Shown in pieces: positions 2,374-21,906 of a stretch of DNA of 40,736 nt. The position numbers and the translations under genes were made by a program. Within the stretch, counting starts at the first letter, position 1; each line of letters starts with the position of its first letter. Where the stretch lies: IMG/VR virus record IMGVR_UViG_3300025652_000164, positions 1 through 40,736 of that record; one strand, written 5' to 3'. The stretch comes from a virus. The notes below the pieces were generated by a model. That model ran no database searches, was not told the origin of the DNA, and worked only from the letters and a program-made list of their open reading frames with translations.

Positions 2374-3155
2374 TAATAGTCGCCATATACATCAGTATCG
2401 TTAACTGACATGTTAAAAACATCTTCCTTACTAGTGCTATCTACATTATATAAATCGTAATTATCTTTTTTAGTTTGTGATTGTTCGTTAACACCACCGC
2501 TTAACCTACCAGCAAACGTATCTTCATAGATTTGACTATTACCTGATATATTACTAGTTAAATTATTAAACGGTATATTTGGTTCAAAGCTATAATCTAG
2601 ACGTTTAGCTTTTATTAAGAAGACGTAATGACCAGCTAAGTTATTGATTTGTGCAATATCTTCATCAAGCTTTTCAGTTATTTCAAAATACTTAGCTTGT
2701 CGATTGTTAGGTCTATCATCACCATATTCACTTAATTGAAATACGTCACCAGCTTTAGGTTCAACAATATTGTATTGAGTCTCCCAAACAGCACTTAAAG
2801 TATAAAATTCATCATAGAAAGATGATATATGGATATATGCAGTTATATCATCATCACTTTCAAATCCAAATTGAGATAATGTTATTGCATTTTCATTTAA
2901 AGTTGCAGCGATAATTATTTCTCTTGGATCTGCAAATACTTTTGTAGGTTCTTCGCCATATAAGTTATTTGCACTTAATGTATTGAATGTATTGACAAAA
3001 TATTTAACTTTAACACCGTATTGATTAATTTGTTCCCTCCACCAGTTACTAAATAAAAAGCGTTCAGATTCTTGAATACTTTTATCAGTAAATCTATAGC
3101 ATGCTTCATCAACTACTTGCATACCTGGGTAACAGTTATCGTAATCTATGCTCAT
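2370..3155 (-). CDS. gp14: Neck protein, T4 gp14-like
   Basis: 261 residues (T4 gp14 is of similar size). T4 gp14 is a head-completion neck protein that joins the DNA-filled head to the tail. Recognisable features in order are YGVKVKYFVNTF with LYGEEP (about residues 46-70), the run ENAITLSQFGFESDDDITAY (about 88-107), and GDVFQLSEYGDD followed by a segment like the gp14 middle domain (about 135-175). The C-terminal 60 residues are polar and probably flexible. The start overlaps the stop of the upstream gene by 4 bases, so translation is coupled. Assignment rests on remembered family patterns. Confidence 0.75.
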   Translation of the reverse strand: MSIDYDNCYPGMQVVDEACYRFTDKSIQESERFLFSNWWREQINQYGVKVKYFVNTFNTLSANNLYGEEPTKVFADPREIIIAATLNENAITLSQFGFESDDDITAYIHISSFYDEFYTLSAVWETQYNIVEPKAGDVFQLSEYGDDRPNNRQAKYFEITEKLDEDIAQINNLAGHYVFLIKAKRLDYSFEPNIPFNNLTSNISGNSQIYEDTFAGRLSGGVNEQSQTKKDNYDLYNVDSTSKEDVFNMSVNDTDVYGDYY

Positions 3156-3513: not shown

Positions 3514-3550
3514 AAAAAAAAGCTGCAACAAGTAAAGTTGCAGCTTTTTT
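3514..3550. terminator. Rho-independent terminator, usable in both directions
   Basis: An 8-bp perfect stem GCTGCAAC/GTTGCAGC (3522-3529 with 3537-3544) encloses a 7-base loop and is flanked by eight A on the left and six T on the right. Read on the minus strand it gives a hairpin followed by eight U, correctly placed just after the stop of the gene ending at 3569. Confidence 0.85.
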
Positions 3551-3568: not shown

Positions 3569-4072
3569 TTAAGCAAATAAGTCACCTGTTTGGTTATTTA
3601 CTTTATTTTGCTTTGATGTAAGCTTGCCTTTTCCATCTGCAAGTGGCTTACCTTTACCATCTACAGTCGTCTTAACTTGACCATGTGCTTTACCTTTCGA
3701 AGCTTTTACATTACCTACTGTATTCTTACGACTTGTAAGTGAATGACCAGCTGAAGCTGGAACTTCCTTTAATTCAGTAGCTTCTTCTAACTCTTCATCT
3801 TCATCATCTTCTTCAGCTTCTTCAGCTCCGAAAGCTTCAAAACCACCTTCGTCTTCACCTTCGTCTTCACCTTCGTCTTCATCACTCAATTGATCCATTA
3901 ACATATCATGAAGCTTTTGAGCTGTTTCACGATCCAAGGTTAATGTAATTTCGTCCGTTTCTTCAACTTCAACATCACCTTCATCACCTGCGTCAATACC
4001 GAGTGCTTCGAGTTCATTTTGGTCTTCTTCGTTCATTACCGATTCAAATAACTTATCAAATGTAGATTTCAT
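3569..4072 (-). CDS. Nested short form of the prohead-core-like protein
   Basis: In-frame internal ATG at 4072 gives 167 residues starting MKSTFDKLFESVMNE. A perfect TATAAATA (4078-4085) sits exactly 5 bases upstream, the spacing seen at true gene starts here, and encodes part of the sequence ESINNN of the long form. The short form would begin with its own targeting-like helix and carry the acidic block and basic tail but not the Lys/Gly-rich first 106 residues. Whether both forms are made cannot be decided from sequence. Confidence 0.55.
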   Translation of the reverse strand: MKSTFDKLFESVMNEEDQNELEALGIDAGDEGDVEVEETDEITLTLDRETAQKLHDMLMDQLSDEDEGEDEGEDEGGFEAFGAEEAEEDDEDEELEEATELKEVPASAGHSLTSRKNTVGNVKASKGKAHGQVKTTVDGKGKPLADGKGKLTSKQNKVNNQTGDLFA

Positions 4073-4390
4073 ATTATTATTTATAGATTCTTTTATCTTT
4101 TTTCCAACCTTTTCGTCATAAATTTCGGAAGAAAAATCTTTACTATCATATAATTCATCTTTTTTCTTTGATTTTTTAGGGTCAATTGGTTCTTTTAAAC
4201 CTTCTGCATTGTCAGGTCCTGTTGATTTCCCGTTTTGAAACTTCTTATTTTTATCGCTATTTAAATCAGCTGGACCTTTACCTGGTTTAGTGCCAAACTT
4301 AGCTGCTTTTTCTCCAGGTACGTTTTCTGATAAAATATTAGTGGAATATGTATCCCAAATTTCTGTGAGTGTATTTGCCCGACTTGTCAT
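3569..4390 (-). CDS. Acidic prohead-core/scaffold-like protein, long form
   Basis: 273 residues from the ATG at 4390. A longer frame from 4426 exists, but AATAAATA lies exactly 5 bases before 4390. Residues 1-22 end in ILSE, like a capsid-targeting peptide. Residues 25-105 are Lys/Gly/Asp/Pro rich and likely disordered. Residues 107-180 repeat a targeting-like helix (KSTFDKLFESVMNE) and a possible short helical domain. Residues 180-215 are almost wholly Glu/Asp (EDEG repeats), and the C-terminal 60 residues are basic, rich in Lys, Gly and Asn. Such charge blocks are typical of T4-group prohead core proteins (gp67/gp68 type). An internal start at 4072 has its own late promoter. Confidence 0.65.
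   Translation of the reverse strand: MTSRANTLTEIWDTYSTNILSENVPGEKAAKFGTKPGKGPADLNSDKNKKFQNGKSTGPDNAEGLKEPIDPKKSKKKDELYDSKDFSSEIYDEKVGKKIKESINNNMKSTFDKLFESVMNEEDQNELEALGIDAGDEGDVEVEETDEITLTLDRETAQKLHDMLMDQLSDEDEGEDEGEDEGGFEAFGAEEAEEDDEDEELEEATELKEVPASAGHSLTSRKNTVGNVKASKGKAHGQVKTTVDGKGKPLADGKGKLTSKQNKVNNQTGDLFA
3845..3880. repeat. Three tandem 12-base units in the acidic block
   Basis: Three perfect copies of ACCTTCGTCTTC (plus strand) encode the EDEG repeats of the prohead-core-like protein. It is a small in-frame minisatellite whose copy number could change without breaking the frame. Confidence 0.85.
4078..4085 (-). promoter_or_regulatory. Internal late promoter TATAAATA in a coding region
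   Basis: A perfect octamer on the minus strand, then ATAAT, then an in-frame ATG at 4072. Same spacing as the intergenic late promoters. Confidence 0.6.
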
Positions 4391-4403
4391 ATAAATATTT
4401 ATT
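4390..4403. promoter_or_regulatory. Bidirectional late promoter between core-like gene and terminase
   Basis: The same 12-base palindrome as at 799-810 (ATAAATATTTAT, 4391-4402). The minus strand reads AATAAATA, 5 bases, ATG at 4390. The plus strand reads TATAAATA (4390-4397), 8 bases, ATG at 4406. The plus element overlaps the minus-strand start codon by one base. Confidence 0.7.
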
Positions 4404-4405
4404 GG

Positions 4406-6100
4406 ATGGTAGCTAAAAATAAACAAAATTACATGAATAACCCGGATTTACCAAATGTCGGGGCTGAATTTGAGTATACACCTAAGATGATAAAAGAGCT
4501 TAAAAAGGCTCAAAACAACTTATTATATTTTGCTGAAAACTTTTTTCATATAATTTCACTGGATGATGGTAAACAAAAAATAAACTTACATTACTGTCAG
4601 AAACGAGCTTTACGTAAAATGCGGGATAATAGATTCTTTATATTATTAGCATCTCGACAAATTGGTAAGACTACAATGATGACAATCTATGCTTTATGGA
4701 TTGCTTGCTTTAATAATGATCAACGTATTCTAATTGTAGCTAATAAAGAAGGCACTGCTATTGAAATTATGAATAGAATTAGATTAGCATATGAAGAGCT
4801 ACCTAATTGGTTAAAACCAGGTGTTAAAGAATATGGTAAGACTGCAGTAACGTTAGCGAATGGTACGAGAATAGGTATATCAACTACCACAGGTACAGCA
4901 GCTCGTGGTCAATCTGTAAATTGTTTAATTCTAGACGAGCTAGCTTTTATTGAGCCTAATCTTGTTGATGATTTCTGGAAATCAGTATATCCCATCGTTT
5001 CAGCTTCTAAGAAGTCTAAGATTTTTATAGCTTCAACAGCAAATGGTACTGAAAATCTTTTCTATAAGTTATATTCAGGAGCTGAGTCTGGGGATTCTAA
5101 TTGGGCATACGATAAAATCTTATGGAATGAAATACCAGGTAGAAATGAAAAATGGAAACAAGATACTATAGCATCTATTGGTAGTACAGATGCATGGATG
5201 CAAGAGTTTGAATGTCAATTTATATCAACTGGTGAGAGTTCTTTAGATTTAGAACTTTTTGAAAAGTTATCTACACAAGCAAAGGACCCGAAATTTGTTT
5301 TTGATGATGGACACTATTTACTCTGGGATGAACCGAAAGATGATAGAATATATATAGCAAGCGTTGATACAGCAGAAGGTTTAGGTCGGGATGCTTCAGT
5401 TATACAGATATTAGATTATACTGATCTCACTAATATAGAACAAGTAGCTACATACCATAATAATATGATATCACCTTATAACTTCACTGAAAAGGTTTAT
5501 GAAATATTACAACACTGGGGTAATCCGTTAGTATGTATTGAAAGAAATAATAGTGGTGGTCAAGTTGTTGATATTCTTAAAAATACACACAATTATGAAA
5601 ACATAGTATCGTGGGGAGCAGCTACTGCAAGTAATAGAAAGAATAACCAACTAGGTATCGTAGCTCATACTAACACAAAATATAAAGGTGTTATGAATAT
5701 GAGATATTGGTTAAATGAACTTGAAGCGGTGAAGATAAACGATATACATCTGGTTAAAGAATTAAAGGACTTTACGAAACACCCAAATGGTACATGGAGT
5801 GCCAGGAAAGGCAAGCATGATGATAGAGTAACATCGATGATGTGGAATTTAATAATTCTTATAGATGATATAGTTACAACATATTTTGATGTTGTTAAAT
5901 ATGATTTAAATAATCGACCTTTAGAGTTACAGCAATTTGATTACGGTATTAAATATTTTATAGACCCTACTTCAATGTATACTAATGAAAAAGATACCGG
6001 CTATACACCGACTTTACCTGTTATAATAGGCAATGCTGAACAAGTAAATAATGATATGGGTAATTTAATTAATCAAGGGTATAAAATATGGCAAATGTAA
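4406..6100 (+). CDS. gp17: Terminase large subunit (DNA-packaging ATPase/nuclease), T4 gp17-like
   Basis: 564 residues (T4 gp17: 610). This is the motor that translocates DNA into the prohead and cuts the concatemer. The N-terminal ATPase shows Walker A SRQIGKTT (83-90), Walker B with catalytic Glu in CLILDE (173-178) and coupling motif STANG (210-214). The C-terminal RNase H-like nuclease has acidic residues in IASVDTAEG (Asp321), CIERNNSGG (Glu379) and KGKHDDR (near residue 474). All key residues are present, so the enzyme should be active. It starts 8 bases after a TATAAATA; the short leader contains GG but no clear ribosome site. It overlaps the next gene by 13 bases. Confidence 0.97.
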   Translation: MVAKNKQNYMNNPDLPNVGAEFEYTPKMIKELKKAQNNLLYFAENFFHIISLDDGKQKINLHYCQKRALRKMRDNRFFILLASRQIGKTTMMTIYALWIACFNNDQRILIVANKEGTAIEIMNRIRLAYEELPNWLKPGVKEYGKTAVTLANGTRIGISTTTGTAARGQSVNCLILDELAFIEPNLVDDFWKSVYPIVSASKKSKIFIASTANGTENLFYKLYSGAESGDSNWAYDKILWNEIPGRNEKWKQDTIASIGSTDAWMQEFECQFISTGESSLDLELFEKLSTQAKDPKFVFDDGHYLLWDEPKDDRIYIASVDTAEGLGRDASVIQILDYTDLTNIEQVATYHNNMISPYNFTEKVYEILQHWGNPLVCIERNNSGGQVVDILKNTHNYENIVSWGAATASNRKNNQLGIVAHTNTKYKGVMNMRYWLNELEAVKINDIHLVKELKDFTKHPNGTWSARKGKHDDRVTSMMWNLIILIDDIVTTYFDVVKYDLNNRPLELQQFDYGIKYFIDPTSMYTNEKDTGYTPTLPVIIGNAEQVNNDMGNLINQGYKIWQM

Positions 6101-21325: not shown

Positions 21326-21906
21326 CCATTAATTGGCATATACTGCGAAGTATAATTCTCATTAACTGCAGGAGATGGAGTAGCAGGTTTAGAAGGAATC
21401 TTCGTATTGCTTCTTGCGTTAGAAAGATTTGTCTTCTTAAGGCTATCACCTTGCTGAGTCATTGTTTGTTGCTGCTCTTCGTTTTCTTCTGCTTCGATAG
21501 GGTCAATTTGAACTTTATTTTTATATTTCCAATTATCTGGTACTTTATGTCCAAATTCTTCATCTTCTTCTGGAGACATTAAGCAATTACTTGGTAAAGC
21601 TACTTCAGTATTAGGGTCATGTAGACCAGTATTAAGTAGTTGTGCTACTATAGCTACAAATTCTAAACCTCTATTATCTGCATTACCTGGAGCTGTTGAA
21701 GGCATTTTTGTATTCATACCAACAATAGTAACTGGGTTACCACTTTTAAATAAATCTTCAATTTGTTGCTTAATAGCATCAGATAGATTTTTGTAATCTG
21801 GTACGGATTTATATTTTGGAGCTAATACAACACACTGCCCGGTTAAGAAACCTCCATTAGTGCCTTTATGGATGCTCTCGACTAACTTTAAAAACTTTTT
21901 TGACAT
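21322..21906 (-). CDS. Virion-associated-type protein with targeting-like N-terminus
   Basis: 194 residues from the ATG at 21906, chosen over the longer frame from 21933 because CATAAATA lies exactly 5 bases before it. The N-terminus MSKKFLKLVES is a basic amphipathic helix with LVE|S, a good match to a T4 prohead-protease site. Residues 12-115 look folded (GQCVVLAPKYKSVPDY, NPVTIVGMNTKMPS). The rest is Glu/Gln/Asn/Thr rich and disordered (about 130-194). No named family recognised. It is late-expressed by its promoter although it sits next to early genes. Confidence 0.65.
   Translation of the reverse strand: MSKKFLKLVESIHKGTNGGFLTGQCVVLAPKYKSVPDYKNLSDAIKQQIEDLFKSGNPVTIVGMNTKMPSTAPGNADNRGLEFVAIVAQLLNTGLHDPNTEVALPSNCLMSPEEDEEFGHKVPDNWKYKNKVQIDPIEAEENEEQQQTMTQQGDSLKKTNLSNARSNTKIPSKPATPSPAVNENYTSQYMPING

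Follow-up and report, generated by a model that had tools for sequence, protein, structure and literature searches.

A conserved late promoter-like octamer within an open reading frame of an uncultured T4-like myovirus predicts a nested second product

The window (the whole stretch of DNA analyzed, 40,736 nt) is a 40.7-kb fragment from the virus record of an uncultured T4-like myovirus, with a GC content of 0.30 and homologues of terminase, tail tube, sheath, gp25, and gp6. A 273-amino-acid open frame on the minus strand begins with the ATG at position 4390, ends with a stop codon at 3571-3569, and diverges from the terminase gene, which starts at 4406 on the other side (Table 1). The presence of a perfect TATAAATA octamer 5 nt before an in-frame ATG at 4072, noted originally from the sequence of this frame, was confirmed on the minus strand. 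The spacer ATAAT (4077-4073) separates the octamer (4085-4078) from the ATG (4072-4070), which is codon 107 of the 273-amino-acid frame, in frame with and 106 codons on from the ATG at 4390. The predicted short product begins with MKSTFDKLFESVMNEEDQ and, as had been stated, includes the acidic block. Glutamate 22, which ends the first leader, was retained in at least 90% of 29 aligned rows.

Table 1. Features of the 273-amino-acid open frame and its surroundings (window coordinates)
Feature	Position	Strand	Remarks
Long open frame, full product, 273 aa	3569..4390	-	Full length kept in relatives
Putative late-promoter octamer AATAAATA, long form	4396..4403	-	5 nt before ATG 4390; equivalent at gene start in most relatives
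Leader 1, residues 1-22 (...NILSE), helix ending hydrophobic-x-E	4325..4390	-	Low-confidence AF2 helix 8-20
N-body, residues 23-106, basic, pI 9.2	4073..4324	-	Poorly conserved in sequence and length
Putative internal late-promoter octamer TATAAATA, -13..-6 of ATG 4072	4078..4085	-	Conserved in relatives
Nested open frame, predicted short product, 167 aa, pI 4.2	3569..4072	-	M107 invariant in 29 aligned representatives
Leader 2, MKSTFDKLFE, capsid-targeting-like, LxE at residues 8-10	4043..4072	-	
C-body, residues 117-207, pI 4.05	3770..4042	-	ELxALGID motif, VTLTLDRxxAxxL helix, acidic block
Basic C-terminal tail, residues 208-273, pI 10.3	3572..3769	-	
Bidirectional terminator-like hairpin, 14 bp	3516..3550	not assigned	3' of stop

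The ATG nearest to a NATAAATA octamer lay 5 to 6 nt away in 16 of 48 cases in the window, compared with 1 of 25 in T4, 0 of 11 in the cyanophage P-RSM4, and 0 of 4 in phiM9. In the T4 late region, the octamer-ATG distance peaks near 21 to 28 nt. Across 11 long relatives, the pattern ATAAATAN5ATG had 164 matches, versus 15 for a reversed control pattern. Motifs resembling Shine-Dalgarno (SD) sequences preceded 2 of 39 ORFs in the window, versus 27 of 37 in T4. A late sigma factor of the gp55 class (phrog_234) was found in 10 of 12 long relatives; gp55-like matches in L273 and in G001 (77775-78176) are each interrupted by a single stop codon (TAA, TAG). On this layout, an octamer followed after 5 or 6 nt by ATG is the predicted normal late gene start of the clade, and the internal box is laid out like such a putative ordinary start. 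The T4 octamer begins at -13 (PMC2988020); with a 5-nt spacer, +1 would therefore fall on the A of the ATG, and by this T4 geometry, together with the near absence of SD-like motifs, late mRNAs of the clade look leaderless.

The same spacing was observed at other gene starts in the window, including those at 788 (minus), 811 (plus), 3499 (minus), 9175 (plus), 23491 (plus), and 29533 (plus). If octamer spacing is used as a guide, three genes probably start at 21906 (minus), 9175 (plus), and 6734 (plus) rather than at the first start codons of the corresponding ORFs (21933, 9142, and 6728). A divergent gene pair at 788-811, with a gap of 22 nt, has overlapping, oppositely oriented TATAAATA octamers. 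In one relative (L106, 15841, plus strand), an in-frame TTTAAATA-N5-ATG lies within the gp23-like major capsid gene (RLNTAM); this is a weaker octamer variant and is probably due to chance.

The two halves of the 273-amino-acid frame differ in charge (pI 9.2 versus 4.2) and in conservation, mean column identity being 51% in the C-core versus 31% in the N-half, a level too low to permit an alignment scan of the N-half. Each half has the same anatomy of putative promoter, leader, cut site, and body. This arrangement is compatible with an in-frame fusion of two genes that kept both promoters, as raised in the original prediction. In such an origin, the loss of a stop codon would have joined two targeting-leader genes, each with its own late promoter, and both products would have been kept; it is also compatible with the nested-gene explanation favored below. 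However, every relative retrieved is fused, with neither the first 106 codons nor the C-half found among them as a separate gene, and the gain of an internal promoter within a single gene fits equally well. Fusion is regarded as a possible but somewhat doubtful origin.

No family match for the protein was found in Pfam or PHROGs, which returned weak low-complexity hits only. Searches of 50,697 phage records by tblastn with four queries yielded no relative of the protein or of its C-core, and a scan of bacterial genomes likewise yielded none. An AF2 model (pLDDT, 52; pTM, 0.14) was mostly disordered, with helices at residues 8 to 20, 93 to 119, and 154 to 169, and was too poor for a fold search. 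Identity with the gp22 scaffold was considered and rejected, given the lack of a PHROG or Pfam match and the presence in relatives of a separate, gp22-like gene between the protease and the major capsid protein. In long relatives, the gene lies far from this head cluster (protease/gp22-like/capsid) and adjoins terminase and tail tube/sheath genes. This location, the missing family match, and the commonness of short hydrophobic-x-E motifs would all fit a reading in which the promoter and nested product are real and the protein has a role outside the head or core (for example, as a chaperone, tail, or regulatory protein), with its leader resembling head-targeting leaders by coincidence.

The leaders themselves argue against such a coincidence. 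Both end in hydrophobic-x-E (...NILSE in the long form and MKSTFDKLFE in the short form), and T4 gp21 cleaves after L/I-x-E (PMC9026906). The first ten residues of T4 IPIII suffice for targeting, and residues 8 and 10 are required for processing (PMC9026906); the T4 IPII/IPIII leader is MKTYQEFIAE. Leader positions that are important in T4 differ, with threonine 4 and lysine 7 here versus tyrosine 4 and phenylalanine 7 in T4. Of 63 distinct sequences, 62 retain the LxE of the short leader (L8-F9-E10); one relative, L097, has LYD in place of LFE/LYE, and the leader is 1 to 2 residues longer in some relatives. Neighboring leaderless-type genes have the same leader style. Hydrophobic-x-E leaders were counted in 20 of 21 leaderless-type genes of head-side or unknown class and in 2 of 23 genes of tail, neck, or portal class, the classes having been set post hoc and some orthologues counted twice. 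N-terminal sites of the same kind also occur near the starts of gp22 and gp21 in relatives. A protein outside the head is accordingly considered unlikely. A prohead protease of the gp21 type (PF03420) was found in 4 of 10 long relatives, all of which are genome fragments. The earlier description of the protein as prohead-core-like finds support on one side and not on the other: its two N-termini resemble prohead-targeting leaders with hydrophobic-x-E, but there is no family match, and the true homologues of gp22, gp21, and gp20 lie elsewhere in relatives, so that this protein is not the main scaffold. On the strength of the leaders, the products would be targeted to the head and cleaved there.

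Six unknown genes in the window that start with an octamer (366, 788, 3499, 21906, and 19761 on the minus strand and 811 on the plus strand) have hydrophobic-x-E within 9 to 17 residues and are candidates for head-packaged proteins.

In the window alone, the internal box is within chance expectation. The TATAAATA octamer was seen 22 times, versus 19 expected from shuffles, and is not overrepresented; an in-frame internal NATAAATA-N5/6-ATG occurred once across all window genes, where synonymous resampling expects 0.38 (P[≥1] = 0.38). Because chance is not rejectable in the window, the case rests on relatives, which carry the argument. The IMG/VR scans that retrieved them were protein based, using peptide patterns derived from the protein and not the box; they found 380 to 389 relatives of the C-terminal core, from which the best 80 per scan were read. 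The original prediction named lack of conservation of the octamer in relatives as a result that would refute it, and the octamer proved to be conserved. Among these best 80 per scan, NATAAATA or NCTAAATA, that is, (A/C)TAAATA, preceded the corresponding in-frame ATG at a distance of exactly 5 nt in all 152 distinct frames. The sole relative seen without the box, L240 (about position 3000), has lost the internal octamer (GTTAACACAATG) and kept the ATG. From the synonymous codon usage of the sequences themselves, carriers expected at three redundancy levels were 18.6 of 79, 8.6 of 41, and 5.0 of 23 representatives; in the most divergent set the box was present in 23 of 23, with the qualification that relatives share ancestry, and the 152, 79, 41, and 23 sequences are not independent trials.

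An octamer might still be conserved as the by-product of an amino acid motif, S/T-I-N-N-x-M, with no promoter role and with the long protein alone being made. INN-M is conserved at the amino acid level, the window by itself is compatible with chance, and 7 of 56 conserved columns, mainly AAA, GAA, and TTT codons, also showed no synonymous change. Codon choice within the box, however, points strongly the other way. Of the distinct sequences, all 49 with isoleucine at this position used ATA (background, 28%), and all 11 with leucine used CTA (background, 12%); both are minority codons yet invariant at the box, whereas other conserved isoleucine columns use ATT or a mixture of ATA, ATT, and ATC. 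Residues in the box vary (I/L and N/T/K/I) while the DNA stays TAAATA. The distance from box to ATG is unchanged across relatives, and in L019, where the ATG lies two codons further from FDKLF (two extra residues), the box shifts along with it. The N5 following the octamer is AT rich in nearly all relatives. Boxes at the first ATG, that of the long form, are weaker in two relatives (L086 and L094). A by-product of the protein motif is therefore highly improbable, and the putative internal start signal is conserved beyond protein need. The promoter bases do encode ESINNN, as noted originally, but they do not simply encode it, since the codons are held at ATA/CTA-AAT-A far beyond what the amino acids require. 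Conservation in this way lends strong support to the central proposal of a late promoter inside the frame from which a shorter nested product would be made.

A role of the internal octamer in serving the downstream gene on the same strand (3499-3152) rather than a nested product was rejected as scarcely credible, as the 14-bp terminator-like hairpin intervenes, a separate TATAAATA lies 5 nt upstream of the ATG of that gene, and there would be no explanation for a spacing of exactly 5 nt to the in-frame ATG. The hairpin has T/A runs on either side (z = -5.9); given its place after the stop codon and the separate octamer of the next gene, the 3' end of the long and short transcripts would be common.

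The explanation favored here, and judged probable from the sequence comparisons, is a nested gene under a leaderless late promoter of its own, predicted to give a 167-amino-acid product with a leader of the head-targeting type beside the 273-amino-acid form. The internal octamer would be a working T4-type late promoter of the gp55 class, and conservation together with the clade-wide layout argues strongly that RNA polymerase of the gp55 type would initiate at both octamers. The second mRNA would be leaderless, with ATG 4072 as its first codon, and its leaderless translation, for which the case is also strong, would give the 167-amino-acid protein. Late infection would then produce long (273-amino-acid) and nested short (167-amino-acid) forms with the C terminus in common. 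Both forms would probably enter the prohead and be trimmed there by a gp21-type protease. The short form may enter by its own leader of the T4 internal-protein type and be trimmed after E116; cleavage of the long form at E22 as well as at E116 may yield an identical mature C-piece. Such an arrangement could conceivably serve to provide more C-body than basic N-body and to make the supply of the one independent of the other. A fuller version is held more tentatively, at slightly below even confidence: a clade-wide leaderless late program would nest a second head-targeted gene such that one frame has two late promoters, two leaders, and two protease sites, and maturation of the long and short precursors would yield an identical C-terminal piece, the amounts differing between the two.

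Putative promoter information at this locus lies inside a coding frame and appears to be held for its own sake, conserved over about 150 distinct sequences. Two products from one gene are predicted for a widespread group of aquatic phages. The clade-wide layout points to altered late expression in a T4 lineage, with neither leader nor SD sequence. For annotation, an octamer followed by 5 to 6 nt and ATG may be taken to mark the true start, and LxE leaders provide a list of probable head-packaged proteins.

Among known systems, T4 gene 17 (17'A, 17'B, and 17'') and gene 21 (21') likewise have an in-frame internal start and a shared C terminus (AF158101). The phage is of the T4 type in both cases, internal transcription is annotated for T4 gene 17 (AF158101), and gene 21 functions within the core of the prohead. 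The T4 cases differ in involving other genes, and no T4 internal start is preceded by a perfect octamer at a distance of 5 nt. The herpesvirus UL26/UL26.5 pair, a protease-scaffold gene and a nested scaffold gene whose products are trimmed by the maturation protease (PMC4498786, citing Liu and Roizman 1991), is similar in that a 3'-coterminal, in-frame nested gene has its own promoter inside a longer capsid assembly gene. Its sequence is unrelated, and the part unique to the long form here is short and basic rather than a protease.

The T4 internal proteins IPII and IPIII share a 10-residue leader with an MK start and a hydrophobic-x-E end (MKTYQEFIAE versus MKSTFDKLFE). They are small basic products of separate genes, whereas the predicted short product has an acidic C-body and a basic tail and is also the end of a longer protein. 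Like the T4 prohead core proteins gp22, gp67, and gp68, the protein is acidic and of low complexity, with probable prohead protease sites; no homology to these proteins was found, and in relatives a gp22-like gene lies between those for the protease and the major capsid protein. The same NATAAATA octamer is present in late promoters of T4 and of cyanomyoviruses (PMC2984593, PMC2988020), and the conserved octamer, the AT-rich sequence downstream, and the gp55-class sigma factor in relatives are what would be expected of a T4-type late promoter. T4 late genes differ in mostly having leaders with SD sequences, and the 5- to 6-nt distance from octamer to ATG, which implies leaderless mRNA, is not the layout of the T4, P-RSM4, or phiM9 stretches. 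A paper on the phage AR9 notes that transcripts of phages are often leaderless (PMC5312081); in the literature searched, no paper was found that describes leaderless late transcription for T4-like phages. Late products nested in frame within a longer one are thus known. The gene family appears to be new, as do the leaderless late layout and how deeply the internal box is conserved.
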